Positions 15,494 through 46,255 of a stretch of 64,000 nucleotides of DNA are shown in pieces (positions within the stretch are counted from its first letter, which is position 1; the number at the start of each line of letters is the position of its first letter). Source of the stretch: Burkholderia sp. USMB20 (GTDB lineage: Bacteria; Pseudomonadota; Gammaproteobacteria; Burkholderiales; Burkholderiaceae); the NCBI RefSeq assembly GCF_000949135.2, contig NZ_JTAN02000001.1, positions 248,001 to 312,000 of the forward strand. The letters are read 5' to 3'. The notes below the pieces were generated by a model. That model saw nothing but the letters and a program-made list of their open reading frames with translations, made no database searches and was not told where the DNA came from. The translations under genes and the position numbers were made by a program.

Positions 15494-16045
15494 ATGGATG
15501 TCATGGCCAAACTTCTGAACGATCAAGAATTCCAGCGTTTCTCCGAACTTCAGCAGAAGCAGGCGAGCTTCACGATCACGTCCGAGGAAGCGGACGAGCT
15601 GCGCGACATCGTCGCGCGCGCGCAGAAGAAGCGCGACGACCGTGCCGCAGCGATGCGGGCGATCGAGAACTACATCGAGCAGTTCGACATCACGCCCGAC
15701 GAACTCTTTTCGCCCGAGCAGATCGGCGACGCCGCACGTACCTACGGCCTCATCACGGCCACCAAGAAGGAACGCACGCTGCCGCCGTCGATCACGTTCA
15801 ACGGCAAGCCGTACCAATGGACCAAGACGCTTCCGGACGACGTGCGCGGCGCGCTATTCGATGCATTCACGGCCGGCGAATCGGTCAAGCGCTTCATCGC
15901 GATGCCGAAGGACATCGCGCGTTGCGCGCTGACGATCGCCCGCCTCGAGCGCGAAACCGGCGGCATCTATGCCGACGCGCACCTCGAAGAACTCGCGATT
16001 TCGCGTGAGCAGGTGAACGACGCGGCGTCGAAACTCGCTGCATAA
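15494..16045 (+). CDS. Conserved hypothetical protein with H-NS-like N-terminal motif
   Basis: 183 residues, cytoplasmic, no signal peptide or membrane segment. Residues ~50-80 read AMRAIENYIEQFDITPDELF, closely resembling AIRAKIEEFDITAEELGFRP of the H-NS protein encoded at 19.7-20.0 kb, so this part may be an H-NS-type oligomerisation region. The rest differs: there is no SGRGRAPAWL DNA-binding tail but a segment LPPSITFNGKPYQWTKTLPD and a helical C-terminus. I do not recognise a named family. The ATG at 15494 or the in-frame ATG at 15503 could be used; neither has a good ribosome site. Downstream are two hairpins and then twelve copies of a 23-bp repeat. Confidence 0.75.
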   Translation: MDVMAKLLNDQEFQRFSELQQKQASFTITSEEADELRDIVARAQKKRDDRAAAMRAIENYIEQFDITPDELFSPEQIGDAARTYGLITATKKERTLPPSITFNGKPYQWTKTLPDDVRGALFDAFTAGESVKRFIAMPKDIARCALTIARLERETGGIYADAHLEELAISREQVNDAASKLAA

Positions 16046-16053
16046 ACGCTGCT

Positions 16054-16114
16054 GCGGGCACGGTTCATGCGTGCCCGCACCGGCGCGGACGCCGGCAAAA
16101 GCCGGCGCCGCGCC
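16054..16114 (+). terminator. Two consecutive hairpins after the 183-residue protein gene
   Basis: First stem GCGGGCACG/CGTGCCCGC (16054-16062 with 16070-16078). Second stem, about 14 pairs with one bulge, spans 16082-16096 and 16101-16114 around a four-A loop. Neither has a T-tract, so termination is likely but may be Rho-assisted. Confidence 0.6.
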
Positions 16115-16131
16115 AGCCGGAGCACTGCGTT

Positions 16132-16411
16132 CGCAAGCTCCCGAAAAGTCTCACCGAAGCGTCCCGTAAACGCTCACCAAGGCATCCCGGAAAAGCTCAC
16201 CTGAAGCCCCCGGAGACGCTCACCAACCCCTTCCCGAACGTTCTCACCGATGCCTGCCGGAGATGCTCACCGGGGCCTCCCGGAAAGGCTCACCAGGGCT
16301 TCCTGCAAGGGCTCACCGGCAGCTCCCCGGAAAGGCTCACCGAGCACTCCCGTATCGGCTCACCCGACAGCTCCCGGAAAAGCTCACTCGCGGCTCCCGA
16401 AAAGTCTCACC
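16132..16411 (+). repeat. Twelve-unit 23/24-bp tandem repeat array
   Basis: The core CTCACC/T starts at 16150, 16173, 16196, 16219, 16243, 16266, 16289, 16312, 16336, 16359, 16383 and 16406: steps of 23 or 24 bases only. The unit consensus is about gnnGCcTCCCGgAAAaGCTCACC; the TCCCG and CTCACC blocks are best kept and the centre varies. The mean step (23.3) is not a multiple of 3, so no frame gives a repeating peptide. There are no unique spacers, so it is not a CRISPR. The rest of 16412-16733 shows nothing recognisable. Related single copies occur at 19335, 19659 and 40649. Confidence 0.9.
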
Positions 16412-16733
16412 TCTGCTCTGTTTCCGATCCTGCGCATGCGAAATGCCGGAGTTCATGCGCTCGACCATGACACCCCGGAACCGGTGATACGCGGAGGTCA
16501 TCGGCGCACGCAACGCGCCCGCCGCGGATGCCGTGACTCGACGCGCTCGACATTCCCCGCCGGTCACCGGGCGAACGTTGTACCGATCCGCGCAGTCGAG
16601 AGAACCAGCCGAACGATCGGCACACCGAACGACGACGAATTCGCTCGGCAGCGCCTGTGCATCATCGACATCATGCATGCCGTACCGGCTCTGCACGCTG
16701 CCGCCGGACGCGCGAGCACGCTCACCCACGCAA

Positions 16734-19103
16734 TTACGGTTGCAGCTTCATCCTGAACCCCACCACGCCGGGTTCCTCCGTCGTCGACACGGCGAAGCCG
16801 CACGCCTTCGCCAGCGAGATCATCGCGGTGTTCTCGCGCAGCGCCTCGCCGATCATCCATCCGGTGCCGCGCGATCGCGCATAGTCGATGATGCGGGTCA
16901 TCATCAGCCGCCCGAGCCCCTTGCCCTTCTGATCGGGCCGCACGGCGATCGCGAACTCCGCCGTCTCGTTGTCGGGATCGGTAACCGCACGCGCCACCGC
17001 GAGCGTGTGCGACCGGCCCGACACGTCGGTGAACGACACGATGAAGGCCATCTCGCGGTCGTAGTCGATCTGCGTCATGCGCGCGACTTGCGAATGATCG
17101 AAGCTGCGCACCGCGCCGAAGAAACGCATCCGCAGATCGTCCGGCGTCATCGCGGCAAGCAGTTCATTGTGTGCTTCCTCGTCTTCCGGACGGATCGGAC
17201 GGATCGTCACGGTCTCGCCGCGCCATTCGAGCGTCTGCTCGAGATGGCGCGGATACGGCATGATCGCGAGCCGGCTGCGCCCGGCCGCCACCGTGATACG
17301 CGGCGCGACCACGTATGCCCGATCGGACAGCACGCGCAGCGTGACCGACATCGCGACGACTTCGCGCACGTCGCAAACGACTTGCGACAGTGCCGTCAGC
17401 GCATCGAGCGTGGGTTCGACGGGCGTGCGGCGCGCATACGGCGAACGCTCCATCACCGCGCGGGCGAGCACCGTATTCAACGGCGGCAGCCCGTACACGA
17501 CGAACGGCGCCGATACCCCATCCGCCGGCGGCACGGCATAACGGAACACCGGGCCGAAGTTCGAATCGTCGTACATGTCGACCGTGACATCGACGATTCT
17601 GGCGCCGGCCGATTCGTCGGCCGGTGAATCGGCCGGCTCGCCGTGCAGGCCGAAGTGGGAGAGCCAATGCAACGCCGCTTCGCCGGCCAGTTCATGCTCG
17701 CCGGCCTCGACCATCCGTCGCGCCTCGGCCTGCGCGGATGCAACGCATTCGGCCGGCTGCTGCGGCGTGCCCTCGGGCGTCTGCATCAGCAACTGCCGCC
17801 CGAGGTTGTAGTCGACGAGCCGTGCGTATGCGCGCGCAAGCCGCTGCGGCGTGGTGTGCACGGGAATGCCGTTCGCGTGCAGCGCGTCGCGCGTCGCCGC
17901 GTCGACCGCACCGAAGAAACACGCGAGGATGCCGCGGTACGCGTACTGCCGCGATTCGATCAGGGTGCGCGCGACCGCGTCGGCCGGCGCGCTGTGAGAC
18001 GTCGAATGCACGACGAACAGCGTGCCCGTTTGCGGAAACGGCGCGAGCGCCTCGATGGCGGCGCCGAAATGTTCGGGACGCGCATCGTCGCCGAGCGTCA
18101 GCGGATTGCCGGGCGCGGCCAGATGCGGCAGCGCGGCAGCGACCGCCGACGTGGCCGCAGCCGGCCAGTCGGCCAACACGTCGCGCACCTCCGCGACCGC
18201 ATCGACCGCGAGTTTCGCGACGCCTGCGTCGCTCGTCACGAGCGTCGCCGCGCCGCGCGCGGTGACGCGCCCGACGCCGAGCGTCTCGATCTCGTCGAGC
18301 AGATCGTCAAGCGCATCGACACGCACCAACCCCGCGCGCTGGAACGCCGCCGTGTAAAGCGCGTCGCCGGGATCGGCGCGCCCAGTGCGCAGCGCGAGCA
18401 CCGGCTTGTTGCGCGCCGCCGCGCGCGCTGCCGACATGAACTTGCGCGCGGCGCACACGGTGTCGAGTTCCAGCAGGATCGCGCGCGTGCCGGGATCGCT
18501 GGCGAGGTAGTCGAGCACGTCGCCCGCGTCGACGTCGGCTTCGCGGCCCAGCGCGACGACATGCGAAAAACCGAGGCCTCGCGCATCGGCCCAGCCGAGT
18601 ACTGCGTTCGTCAGCGCGTTCGATTGCGACACCCACGCGACGCCGCCCGATCGTGCCGTATAGGCCGGCGCGCCGAAATGCGCATGCCGCGCGGGCGACA
18701 GCACGCCGAGACTGCCGGGCCCGACGATTCGGAGCACGAACGGTTTCGCGGCCTTGAGCGTGCGATCGAGCGCGGCGCGATCGGCGTCGGTGCGCGCCTC
18801 GCCGACGATCACCGCGACGCGCGTGCCGATCTCGCCGAGCTTGCGTACGATGCCGGCCCACGTGGCAGGCGGCGTGCAGATCACGGCGACCGACGGCGGC
18901 GCGGGCAGCCGGTCGACATCGGCCACGACCGTGTGCCCGTTCAGTTCGCGATGCTTCGGATTGACGGGCCACACGTGCCCCTCGAACGCGCCGTCGAGCA
19001 CGCGCGCCCACACCATCGCGCCGATACTGCCCGCGCGCGACGATGCACCGACGACCGCGACGGACCTGGGCTGGAACAACGCATCGAGATGGCGGACGGT
19101 CAC
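16734..19103 (-). CDS. GNAT-type protein lysine acetyltransferase of the Pat/PatZ class
   Basis: 789 residues. Residues ~1-130 are a CoA-binding Rossmann domain (LFQPRSVAVVGASSRAGSIG), ~140-450 resemble NDP-forming acyl-CoA synthetase, ~480-600 look like a shortened ATP-grasp part, and ~620-789 are a GNAT domain (RPDQKGKGLGRLMMTRIID is the acetyl-CoA loop). Homologues such as Salmonella Pat acetylate and inactivate acetyl- and propionyl-CoA synthetases, which fits the nearby propionate cluster. The E. coli protein has about 886 residues, so this one is shorter in the middle. GTG start at 19103 is chosen for GGAG 6 bases upstream; there is no ATG before the conserved fold. Confidence 0.85.
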   Translation of the reverse strand: MTVRHLDALFQPRSVAVVGASSRAGSIGAMVWARVLDGAFEGHVWPVNPKHRELNGHTVVADVDRLPAPPSVAVICTPPATWAGIVRKLGEIGTRVAVIVGEARTDADRAALDRTLKAAKPFVLRIVGPGSLGVLSPARHAHFGAPAYTARSGGVAWVSQSNALTNAVLGWADARGLGFSHVVALGREADVDAGDVLDYLASDPGTRAILLELDTVCAARKFMSAARAAARNKPVLALRTGRADPGDALYTAAFQRAGLVRVDALDDLLDEIETLGVGRVTARGAATLVTSDAGVAKLAVDAVAEVRDVLADWPAAATSAVAAALPHLAAPGNPLTLGDDARPEHFGAAIEALAPFPQTGTLFVVHSTSHSAPADAVARTLIESRQYAYRGILACFFGAVDAATRDALHANGIPVHTTPQRLARAYARLVDYNLGRQLLMQTPEGTPQQPAECVASAQAEARRMVEAGEHELAGEAALHWLSHFGLHGEPADSPADESAGARIVDVTVDMYDDSNFGPVFRYAVPPADGVSAPFVVYGLPPLNTVLARAVMERSPYARRTPVEPTLDALTALSQVVCDVREVVAMSVTLRVLSDRAYVVAPRITVAAGRSRLAIMPYPRHLEQTLEWRGETVTIRPIRPEDEEAHNELLAAMTPDDLRMRFFGAVRSFDHSQVARMTQIDYDREMAFIVSFTDVSGRSHTLAVARAVTDPDNETAEFAIAVRPDQKGKGLGRLMMTRIIDYARSRGTGWMIGEALRENTAMISLAKACGFAVSTTEEPGVVGFRMKLQP

Positions 19104-19598
19104 ATCGGCTCCATACGGTAACGAAAGACGACACGACCGGCACACGGGCACGGATGGCCGTGCACCGGTCGACGCGAACTCCAAGCATAGGCGAACCCGA
19201 TGCGGCTGCCTATATGCCGAACGGCCGACTGTGCGACGCGCATCAATGCCCGCAACATGGGCCGGTCGCCGACGCCTTCGCACGACGCAATGGGCGAAGG
19301 CGACACGATGCGGTCATCCGGCCGTCACTTCAAAGGTGAGGATTTACAGGAACCATGGTGAGCAACTTCGGGAATTGCACGGCGCAATGCGCCAATGCGC
19401 GAGAGGTGACGGCAATCGGCGGTACGTCAGCACCGCGGCGATCGACAACGCCAATGCGCGCATGCCGCGTAATTGCGGGGTTGTTTACCGGAATTCGCGG
19501 CGATATCCGGTCGAATCGCGGTGAATTCGCAAAACGGCATCCGTCAATCGCGCGGCATTGGCGTTCAATTCGCGGTTTCAAGTCGTGCTGCCGCCACC
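19104..19598. other. Intergenic region between pat and the H-NS gene
   Basis: About 500 bases without a supported gene. It holds a single degenerate copy of the 23-bp repeat core at 19335-19352 (minus sense) and several near-copies of AATTCGCGG (about 19494, 19525 and 19564). The pat promoter should lie in the part nearest 19103. Short open frames here have no credible product. Confidence 0.5.
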
Positions 19599-19642
19599 CA
19601 AAAAACAAAACGGTGCGACGGCCGCATGGCCGTTCGCACCGT
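19599..19642 (-). terminator. Rho-independent terminator of the H-NS gene
   Basis: On the minus strand ACGGTGCGA pairs with TCGCACCGT, extended by CGGCC/GGCCG around a 4-base loop with one bulge, followed by TTTTGTTTTTT. It lies 35 bases after the H-NS stop codon, and the 23-bp-repeat-like motif is between the two. Confidence 0.88.
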
Positions 19643-19658
19643 CAGTCAGCGCACGAAA

Positions 19659-19676
19659 GGTGAGGATTTTCGGGAG
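19659..19676 (-). repeat. Single copy of the 23-bp repeat core in the H-NS 3' UTR
   Basis: On the minus strand CTCCCGAAAATCCTCACC follows the TGA stop codon of the H-NS gene with no gap. It differs at 2 of 18 positions from the last unit of the 16.1-16.4 kb array. It is in the same sense as the gene, as is the array relative to the 183-residue gene. Confidence 0.65.
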
Positions 19677-19973
19677 TCAGTCCTTGATCAGGAAACGCGC
19701 GCGGTTCTTGCCGAGCCATGCCGGCGCACGCCCGCGGCCACTCCACGTTTCGCCCGTCTTCGGATTCAGGTACTTCGGCGGCAACGGACGCTTCGGTTTC
19801 GCGGCGGCAGCAGTGCCGATCGGCCGGAAACCGAGCTCTTCCGCGGTAATGTCGAACTCCTCGATTTTCGCGCGAATGGCGGCAATCGCATCGGCAATCG
19901 CCTTTTCGCGTTCCTTGTCGATCTTTTGCTGAAGTCTTTCGAGCTGCGCTGTCAGTTGCCTGTAGGTCGCCAT
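19677..19973 (-). CDS. H-NS family nucleoid-associated protein
   Basis: 98 residues from the ATG at 19973 (an in-frame ATG at 20003 would add 10). The N-terminal half is a charged coiled coil (MATYRQLTAQLERLQQKIDK), the oligomerisation part of H-NS proteins. The C-terminus has YLNPKTGETWSGRGRAPAWL, the beta-proteobacterial form of the H-NS DNA-binding hook that reads the minor groove of AT-rich DNA. Burkholderia carries several such paralogues that silence acquired genes. The flanking intergenic DNA is less GC-rich than its surroundings. Strong terminator downstream. Confidence 0.9.
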   Translation of the reverse strand: MATYRQLTAQLERLQQKIDKEREKAIADAIAAIRAKIEEFDITAEELGFRPIGTAAAAKPKRPLPPKYLNPKTGETWSGRGRAPAWLGKNRARFLIKD

Positions 19974-20077
19974 ATTGGATGGGACTCCGTGAGTGTTATT
20001 CATGAAAAATAGCCGACTCCAAGCGAATGGAAAAGCGCTTCACCCGATTATGGTCTCCTTATCCAGGCATATCGGGA

Positions 20078-40466: not shown

Positions 40467-40673
40467 ATGAAAAACAAGACGACTCGGCTCTTGAGGATAC
40501 TGTCGGACATCCGGCACGCGCAGCGCTGCACCACATTGCGCGCCGCCCGGGCCGCGGCCGAAGCCGACGCGGTGCTCGCGCAGCAGGACGATCCGAAGTC
40601 CGACGAACGCGACGACGCCGAATCCGACGACGCGACCGTCGTCCCCCGCTCCCGTATCGGCTCACCTCACTGA
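40467..40673 (+). CDS. Small hypothetical protein carrying a 23-bp repeat core in its 3' end
   Basis: 68 residues: a basic N-terminus (MKNKTTRLLRILSDIRHAQR), an Ala-rich helix, and an acidic end with several DD/DE pairs. The ATG has a good ribosome site (GGGAG with 6-base spacer), which favours a real gene; no family recognised. Its last codons include CTCCCGTATCGGCTCACC (40649-40666), identical over 18 bases to one unit of the tandem array at 16.1-16.4 kb. Confidence 0.5.
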   Translation: MKNKTTRLLRILSDIRHAQRCTTLRAARAAAEADAVLAQQDDPKSDERDDAESDDATVVPRSRIGSPH

Positions 40674-44839: not shown

Positions 44840-46255
44840 ATGAACCTGAACGAACAGATCGATTCGCTCAACGCGGGCGTCGATCAGCTCCTCCACGATC
44901 ACCACGCCGCGCAGCAGGCGGCACGCAGCGCGGAAGCGTTCGCGCGCGCCGCCGCGGCGGAAGCCCAGGCCGCCGCCGCACGTCACGCCGCCGCGGAAGC
45001 CGAAGCACAGGCCGCCGCGCAGCGCCACACGGCCGCAGCCGCCGACGCCGATGCCGCGCAGCAGCGCCACGCCGACGCCACCGCCGCGGCCGAAGCCGCC
45101 GCCCAACGCCACACCGAAGCCGCCGCGCAGGCCGAGGCCGCCGTCCAGCGGCACGCCGAAGCGACCGCGCTGACCGAGGCGCTCGCGCAGCGCCACGCGG
45201 ATGCCGAAGCCGCGTCGCAGCGTCATGCGGCCGCGATCGCCGAAGCCGAGGCCGCCGCGCAGCGTCATCACGCCGCCGCGACCGAAGCGGACGCGGCCGC
45301 GCAGCGTCATGCGGCGGCCGCCGCGGAAGCCGAAGCCGCCGCGAAGCGCCATGCGGAGGCGACCGCCGCAGCCGAGGCCGCGACGCAGCGCCACGCGGCC
45401 GCGATCGCCGAGGCCGAGGCACTCGCGCAGCGTCACACGCAGGCGATCGCCGAAGCGGAAGCGGCTGCGCAGCGCCATGTCGAGGCAACCGCCGAAGCCG
45501 AAGCGATCACGCAGCGTCACGCCGAAGCGATCGCGCAAGCCGACGCGGCCGCGCAACGCCATGCGGAGGCGACCGCCGAGGCCGAGGCCGTCGCGCAGCG
45601 CCATACCGAAGCGATCGCGCAGGCCGAAGCGGCCGCCGAGCGTCACGCGAAGGCGATCGCCGACGCGGAAGCGCTGGTCGAAGCCGTCGTGAAGGACGCC
45701 GCGACGAACGCGGCAGCTTTGGCCACCGAGCCGGCCGTCGCGGCTGACGTGGTCGAACCGGCCGTCGAGTCCGCCGTTGAGCCGATGACGAACGCCACCG
45801 CGCCGGCTGCTGCCGATGAAGTCGCCGCTGCGGCGGCCGACGCGATCACCGACGTCGTCGCGACCACCACCGCCGACACCGCGATCGAAGTCGCGCCCGC
45901 GGCCGAAGCAGCCACCGACGCCCCCGCGGACAAGGCGACGCTGCACGTCGCGCGCCCGTCGCAGAACGAACTGACGCTGACCGTCAACGGCCAGTCGATC
46001 ACGTTGCACCCGGAGCAGCTGGGCCAGCTGATCGAGGAACTCGCGCATGCGCGCGCGTCGATGCAGCCGGAACCGCCGCCGGGCATCCCGGCCGGCTGGC
46101 GCTTCGTGACGACGAAGAACCCGATGATGGCCGTGCAGAAGCAGTCGAACGGCGATCGTCTGCTGGTCGCGCGCCACACCGGCTACGGCTGGGTGCCGTT
46201 CACGTTCTCGCCGGACGTCGTGATCCAGATGTACATGATGCTGACGCAGCGGTAA
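44840..46255 (+). CDS. Alanine-rich protein with ~17 His-bearing 14-residue repeats and a conserved C-terminal domain
   Basis: 471 residues. Residues ~45-285 consist of about 17 repeats of form AEAEAAAQRHAEAT. The Arg-His pair recurs every 14 residues (one 10-residue step), and Ala and Glu fill the rest, so a long single helix or coiled coil is expected. Residues ~290-370 are a low-complexity Ala/Thr/Val/Pro linker. The last ~100 residues are ordered: LTLTVNGQSITLHPEQLGQL, GWRFVTTKNPMMAVQKQSNG and a GYGWVPFTFSPDVVIQMYMM end. No signal peptide. I recognise no named family. A TAAAAT box at 44807 may be its -10. It lies between hpnA and hpnB. Confidence 0.85.
   Translation: MNLNEQIDSLNAGVDQLLHDHHAAQQAARSAEAFARAAAAEAQAAAARHAAAEAEAQAAAQRHTAAAADADAAQQRHADATAAAEAAAQRHTEAAAQAEAAVQRHAEATALTEALAQRHADAEAASQRHAAAIAEAEAAAQRHHAAATEADAAAQRHAAAAAEAEAAAKRHAEATAAAEAATQRHAAAIAEAEALAQRHTQAIAEAEAAAQRHVEATAEAEAITQRHAEAIAQADAAAQRHAEATAEAEAVAQRHTEAIAQAEAAAERHAKAIADAEALVEAVVKDAATNAAALATEPAVAADVVEPAVESAVEPMTNATAPAAADEVAAAAADAITDVVATTTADTAIEVAPAAEAATDAPADKATLHVARPSQNELTLTVNGQSITLHPEQLGQLIEELAHARASMQPEPPPGIPAGWRFVTTKNPMMAVQKQSNGDRLLVARHTGYGWVPFTFSPDVVIQMYMMLTQR

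Follow-up and report, generated by a model that had tools for sequence, protein, structure and literature searches.

Plasmid inc or copy-control iterons are direct iteron repeats for Rep_3-type initiators, work through titration and handcuffing, and sit beside the origin, not 100–270 kb away from it. In E. coli, the locus datA lies off the origin but near it and binds the initiator DnaA, whose ATP hydrolysis it is described as promoting. On chromosome II (chrII) of Vibrio cholerae, sites located ~40 kb from ori2 are reported to titrate the initiator RctB in multicopy and to inhibit replication, with no origin activity of their own (Baek and Chattoraj, 2014; PMC3937223). In Burkholderia cenocepacia J2315, one sentence in a supplementary-table legend mentions a second cluster of chromosome-2 (c2) iterons, 140 kb from the origin (Du et al., 2016; PMC4948915). 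The present analysis concerns a tandem array of 12 c2-type iterons in a 64,000-nucleotide stretch of the Burkholderia sp. USMB20 genome (contig NZ_JTAN02000001.1, positions 248,001–312,000; hereafter the window, whose own numbering is used throughout). The array is most likely a protein-binding element that had earlier been glimpsed in a single supplementary sentence and that the present analysis identifies, maps and shows to be conserved. No further mention of the second cluster was found among the open-access papers searched (supplementary files lay outside the search), and a search of the same collection for the motif together with a tandem repeat returned nothing related.

The array (16132–16411, + strand) consists of 12 head-to-tail units. 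The original prediction had counted 12 starts of CTCACC at steps of 23 or 24 bp, and both the count and the steps are borne out by direct reading and by TRF, which returns the identical array in the window (12.0 copies, period 23); the hexamer itself is present in all units except unit 11, which terminates in CTCACT. The TCCCG and CTCACC blocks are constant across the units, and the centre is variable. The core of the unit (TCCCGNAAANNCTCACC) is the iteron motif of the chromosome-2 replication origin (oriC2). The published consensus of B. cenocepacia c2 iterons, ctCCCGAAAAacCTCACCTtt, describes the same motif, and its core columns are identical in the array (Du et al., 2016; PMC4948915). In relatives, the dense group of TCCCGNAAANNCTCACC sites adjoins a gene for a 454-aa initiator of the Rep_3 family (Rep3_N, 3.5e-12; Rep3_C, 7.7e-10), here called RepA2. 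This gene is present in 65/65 Burkholderia genomes; its product has a weak match to the plasmid initiator pi in the PDB (E 0.0071) and NCBIfam matches far under the family cut-offs. The evidence on RepA2 and oriC2 comes from the genomes of relatives (for example G013). Near-invariant columns (CCCG, A and CTCACC) are common to the oriC2 sites (500 unique, 41 loci) and the array sites (644 unique, 66 loci). Site positions from the genome search are complete for four of eight genomes (G003, G010, G013 and G018), cover some of the rows of G022 and none of those of G029, G059 and G064. In the four complete genomes, 124 of 143 sites at ≤1 mismatch fall within 300 kb of oriC2, comprising 61 origin sites, 27 array sites and 36 others.

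The window is assigned to chromosome 2 because of synteny: in Burkholderia sp. MS389 and Paraburkholderia xenovorans LB400, the 183-aa gene that precedes the array, used here as a marker, is carried by "chromosome 2". The cumulative GC skew drops across the window save for small rises and is still dropping at the array (16 kb), as expected if the origin lies past the right end of the window, where synteny places repA. The array is very probably the second c2 iteron cluster of the J2315 legend, with which it shares the consensus, the replicon and a similar distance (140 kb from the origin there, a median of 151 kb from repA in the genomes compared here). The J2315 cluster is described in one sentence for one strain, apparently with no function named (Du et al., 2016), whereas the array is now mapped, followed across 65 genomes and examined for signs of selection.

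The marker gene is conserved in 65/65 Burkholderia genomes, and the 800 nt that follow it were searched at ≤3 mismatches in 66 loci (these genomes plus the window). The search yields 694 sites, compared with 7 for the reversed pattern, and 55 of the 66 loci (54 genomes and the window) hold 6–22 sites each. Genome-wide, TCCCGNAAANNCTCACC at ≤1 mismatch has 26–42 matches per genome in 8 whole Burkholderia genomes, and the reversed-pattern control has 0–1. The motif is thus in excess elsewhere and neither absent nor random in relatives, the two points on which the original prediction had staked itself. The marker gene lies 98–272 kb from repA (median 151 kb) in all 49 genomes in which both are on one contig, and it has the same side and orientation relative to repA in 45 of the 49; in the other 16 of the 65 genomes the two are on separate contigs. 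In B. dolosa (G014; L025 and L078), only 6 sites are present, with decayed units in between, a natural partial loss.

Selection was analyzed in the 25 of 66 arrays that have exactly 12 regular sites; the rest were excluded, as their units cannot be paired by index. In the variable columns, orthologous units are 65% identical and non-orthologous units 35%, and, counting ties, the ortholog matches best in 2568 of 3600 unit comparisons. Among orthologous units, nine motif columns differ in 0–1.3% of comparisons, T0, C3 and C16 in 6–14%, five centre columns in 16–29% and six spacer columns in 35–48%. Motif columns are retained while spacers drift, and therefore selection maintains the sites. This agrees with the suggestion, made from the window alone, that selection acts on two blocks held a fixed distance apart: TCCCG and CTCACC columns differ in 0–14% of comparisons, spacers in 35–48%. 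Taken together, the identity of orthologous units and the conservation of motif columns indicate that the array is old and has not been recently homogenised, and that its sites are maintained individually.

Precedent (the V. cholerae chrII sites, datA and plasmid iterons) and position both lead to the reading that the array is probably a locus, distant from the origin, for the titration or handcuffing of RepA2. It would be a remote cluster of predicted RepA2-binding iterons that, at ~100–270 kb from repA2 and oriC2 in relatives, would be copied soon after oriC2 fires. The doubling of some 12 sites on replication would then titrate free RepA2; alternatively, RepA2 may pair, or handcuff, the array with the iterons of the origin. 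Either route would damp re-initiation within the same cell cycle. The binding of RepA2, the negative sign of its effect and titration or handcuffing as the means are all predicted. Among the options first raised for the array, only the multi-site protein target fits; RepA2 would be the likely protein. As with datA, a cluster of initiator-type sites lies off the origin on the same replicon; no datA-like ATP-hydrolysis activity is known for Rep_3 initiators. The array also resembles the V. cholerae chrII sites in being off the origin, on the same replicon and in an early-copied position (Baek and Chattoraj, 2014), RctB being likened to RepA2 by role.

The layout of the array differs from that of oriC2. 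The step between array sites is 23 bp in 528 of 628 cases (66 loci), whereas steps at oriC2 are irregular: 22, 33, 44, 66, 88 and 110 bp together account for 241 of 643 (41 loci), and other steps (47, 52, 56–58, 72, 78, 96–98 and 112 bp) fit multiples of 11 less well. Array sites prefer a G before CTCACC. The array region is 64% GC, compared with 54% at oriC2 of G013, which holds one DnaA box (≤1 mismatch); no DnaA box at that threshold occurs in 15501–17000, and the lowest 100-nt GC content near the array (15900–16750) is 58%. The neighbouring genes that were tested are not rep genes. A role as a replication origin, or a second one, is unsupported by composition, DnaA boxes or skew.

Several observations weigh against a titration or handcuffing locus. 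In 11 of the 66 loci, only 1–3 sites follow the marker gene; these belong to the 11 genomes with the lowest RepA2 scores against G013 RepA2, which look like a single lineage by sequence. Outside the genus, 0 of 49 marker-gene loci has a site at ≤1 mismatch within 3 kb, and three have one 2-mismatch match each. These distant loci come from the best 80 of 138 relatives and are mostly titled Paraburkholderia, Trinickia or Caballeronia (four still Burkholderia); named Burkholderia loci were excluded from the counts, being largely the same genomes as the G-numbered set. The array is therefore not needed by this origin type as such. Two features of oriC2 sites and the published consensus, the first A and a T-rich tail following CTCACC, are missing from array sites, which are also laxer than oriC2 sites in AAA; the affinity of array sites may thus differ. 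In addition, the kept distance between array and repA may be plain synteny, and these are non-independent genomes. Lastly, the origin iterons of V. cholerae are described as acting positively and its inhibitory sites as being of a second type, a 39-mer.

The iteron itself extends beyond the genus. It occurs in 6/6 genomes of five other genera, with 6–35 matches compared with 0–2 for the control (the weakest being G092, 6 and 2), and the RepA2 proteins of these genomes are 82–92% identical. Distal sites are found in 5 of the 6; in G236, for example, three lie within 345 bp, ~35 kb from the origin group. No regular tandem array is seen in the six genomes among the matches listed, and distal sites may have re-arisen at different places. 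G107, G113 and G236 each carry loose clusters of this iteron away from the origin, for the most part at distances under ~150 kb. Short repeats are present at Paraburkholderia-type loci.

Unit 10 stands apart from the others: it has its own consensus, TCCCGTATCGGCTCACC, across the 25 aligned arrays. The pattern TCCCGTATCGNCTCACC at ≤1 mismatch has 1–4 matches per genome, 16 in total in six genomes (control, 0), and all 16 are on the replicon bearing repA2. They lie upstream of repA2 in 5 of the 6 genomes, within the array in 5, 25–31 kb from the array in 4 and beyond the origin in 2. Site 40650 of the window corresponds to the 25–31 kb place of relatives, at 24 kb from the array here, and the three places (upstream of repA2, array unit 10 and 24–31 kb from the array) hold 14 of the 16 matches. 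The TCCCGTATCGGCTCACC variant is located at 16348–16364 and 40650–40666 in the window, at L146:1598 and at L150:3866. A further set of sites was found on chromosome 3. In 12 regions (L207–L218) sampled from at least 25 Burkholderia matches to a chromosome-3-type initiator, 10 contain a pair of chromosome-2-type sites 32–34 bp apart (≤2 mismatches), located past the main cluster of chromosome-3 iterons; L210 (G065) and L212 (G025) have no such pair at this threshold. Chromosome-3-type sites number 12–16 in each of the 12 regions (≤2 mismatches), and none occurs in the window or in the oriC2 locus L146. The pair hints that RepA2 may reach the chromosome-3 origin. A broader and rather speculative view would place RepA2 at the centre of a timing circuit that spans several replicons, built from the unit-ordered remote array, the special TATCGG site (with its counterparts upstream of repA2 and 24–31 kb from the array) and the chromosome-3 origin pair, in which chromosome 2 would time itself and then chromosome 3.

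The array could also bind RepA2 without being a sink, as a loop anchor or a positive element, for instance, like crtS or DARS, a timer by which RepA2 is remodelled or delivered. The strict 23-bp direct repeat, so unlike the irregular spacing of oriC2, would suit such an element, and the individually retained identities of the units, with unit 10 as the TATCGG variant, are superfluous for a mere sink. In V. cholerae and in plasmids, however, off-origin initiator sites on the same replicon are reported to be inhibitory, and this alternative is judged unlikely. No conserved crtS-like partner site with this motif on chromosome 1 was found among eight of the sites listed on other replicons, and such a site could have another motif sequence. 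All eight lie across reading frames free of stops for >120 codons, which says little where GC content is high; identical letters recur only in G010 and G013.

It is quite improbable that the array is a relic of an old origin or a set of transposed iterons with no current role: the partial loss in B. dolosa and the 11 genomes with 1–3 sites would agree with decay, but the motif columns are conserved against drifting spacers and 55 of the 66 loci keep 6–22 sites. A different DNA-binding protein, of the nucleoid or of partition, that shares the oriC2 repeats is still harder to credit. The predicted binding of RepA2 does rest on the iteron assignment of Du et al. (2016), but the parS-like sites of chromosome 2 in G013 are a different palindrome, near repA. 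It is also the rule that iterons beside a Rep_3 gene are the targets of that Rep_3 protein. The location after a gene and the C-rich blocks would suit a 3′ untranslated region (UTR) element or small RNA with repeated UCACC, much as first proposed, or a Rho-loading site between converging genes; an RNA element of any of these kinds is very improbable. Fold z-scores of 0.53 and -0.08 indicate no structure above shuffles, no Rfam family matches at the gathering score, and 15900–16900 contains nothing resembling a promoter or terminator, so that the UTR and RNA options lack support; the same motif also builds oriC2 and occurs on both strands at scattered sites. A CRISPR (contiguous units, just 6–7 nt between 17-nt cores, no unique spacers) and a peptide repeat (a 23/24 step, not a multiple of 3) are rejected, as the original prediction had already argued.

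The array lies between the marker gene and a converging frame (Table 1). The marker gene had been called H-NS-like, which stands in a weak sense only: it has one short local match to a true H-NS-type protein encoded at 19677–20003 (38 columns, E 9e-5 in a single comparison), and neither Pfam nor NCBIfam assigns it to a family at E 0.001. Three satellite iterons (19335–19675) adjoin this H-NS gene, a layout repeated in G010, G013 and G018; G003 has two of the three at ≤1 mismatch. A separate GC-rich tandem repeat of 42 bp, possibly coding, occupies 44947–45672.

Table 1. Array, iteron cores, satellite sites and flanking genes in the window.
Feature	Position	Strand	CTCAC at	Remarks
Tandem array	16132..16411	+		12 chromosome-2-type iterons, period 23/24
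Iteron core 1	16139..16155	+	16150	0 mismatches
Iteron core 2	16162..16178	+	16173	0 mismatches
Iteron core 3	16185..16201	+	16196	0 mismatches
Iteron core 4	16208..16224	+	16219	2 mismatches
Iteron core 5	16232..16248	+	16243	2 mismatches
Iteron core 6	16255..16271	+	16266	2 mismatches
Iteron core 7	16278..16294	+	16289	0 mismatches
Iteron core 8	16301..16317	+	16312	2 mismatches
Iteron core 9	16325..16341	+	16336	1 mismatch
Iteron core 10	16348..16364	+	16359	2 mismatches; TATCGG variant, in relatives also upstream of repA2
Iteron core 11	16372..16388	+	16383	1 mismatch
Iteron core 12	16395..16411	+	16406	0 mismatches
Marker gene	15494..16045	+		183 aa, precedes array; no known family; conserved in 65/65 Burkholderia genomes
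Converging frame	16734..19283	-		After array; CoA-binding/succinyl-CoA-ligase-like with GNAT domain; putative start codon
Satellite iteron	19335..19351	-		1 mismatch; paired with site 22 bp away; counterparts in G013, G003, G010, G018
Satellite iteron	19357..19373	-		2 mismatches; other member of pair; counterparts in G013, G010, G018
Satellite iteron	19659..19675	-		Exact; just beyond end of H-NS gene; counterparts in G003, G010, G013, G018
Satellite site	40650..40666	+		TATCGG class; between two converging frames

A regulatory role for the array is a well-grounded prediction. Detailed work on once-per-cycle firing of origins in multi-chromosome bacteria comes mainly from Vibrio, and a 2026 survey presents the finding of timers in further lineages as an open task (PMC13342612). 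The iteron pair at chromosome 3 suggests a link between replicons. With a compact, removable array that varies naturally from 1 to 22 copies across the genus, the titration model becomes directly testable outside Vibrio.
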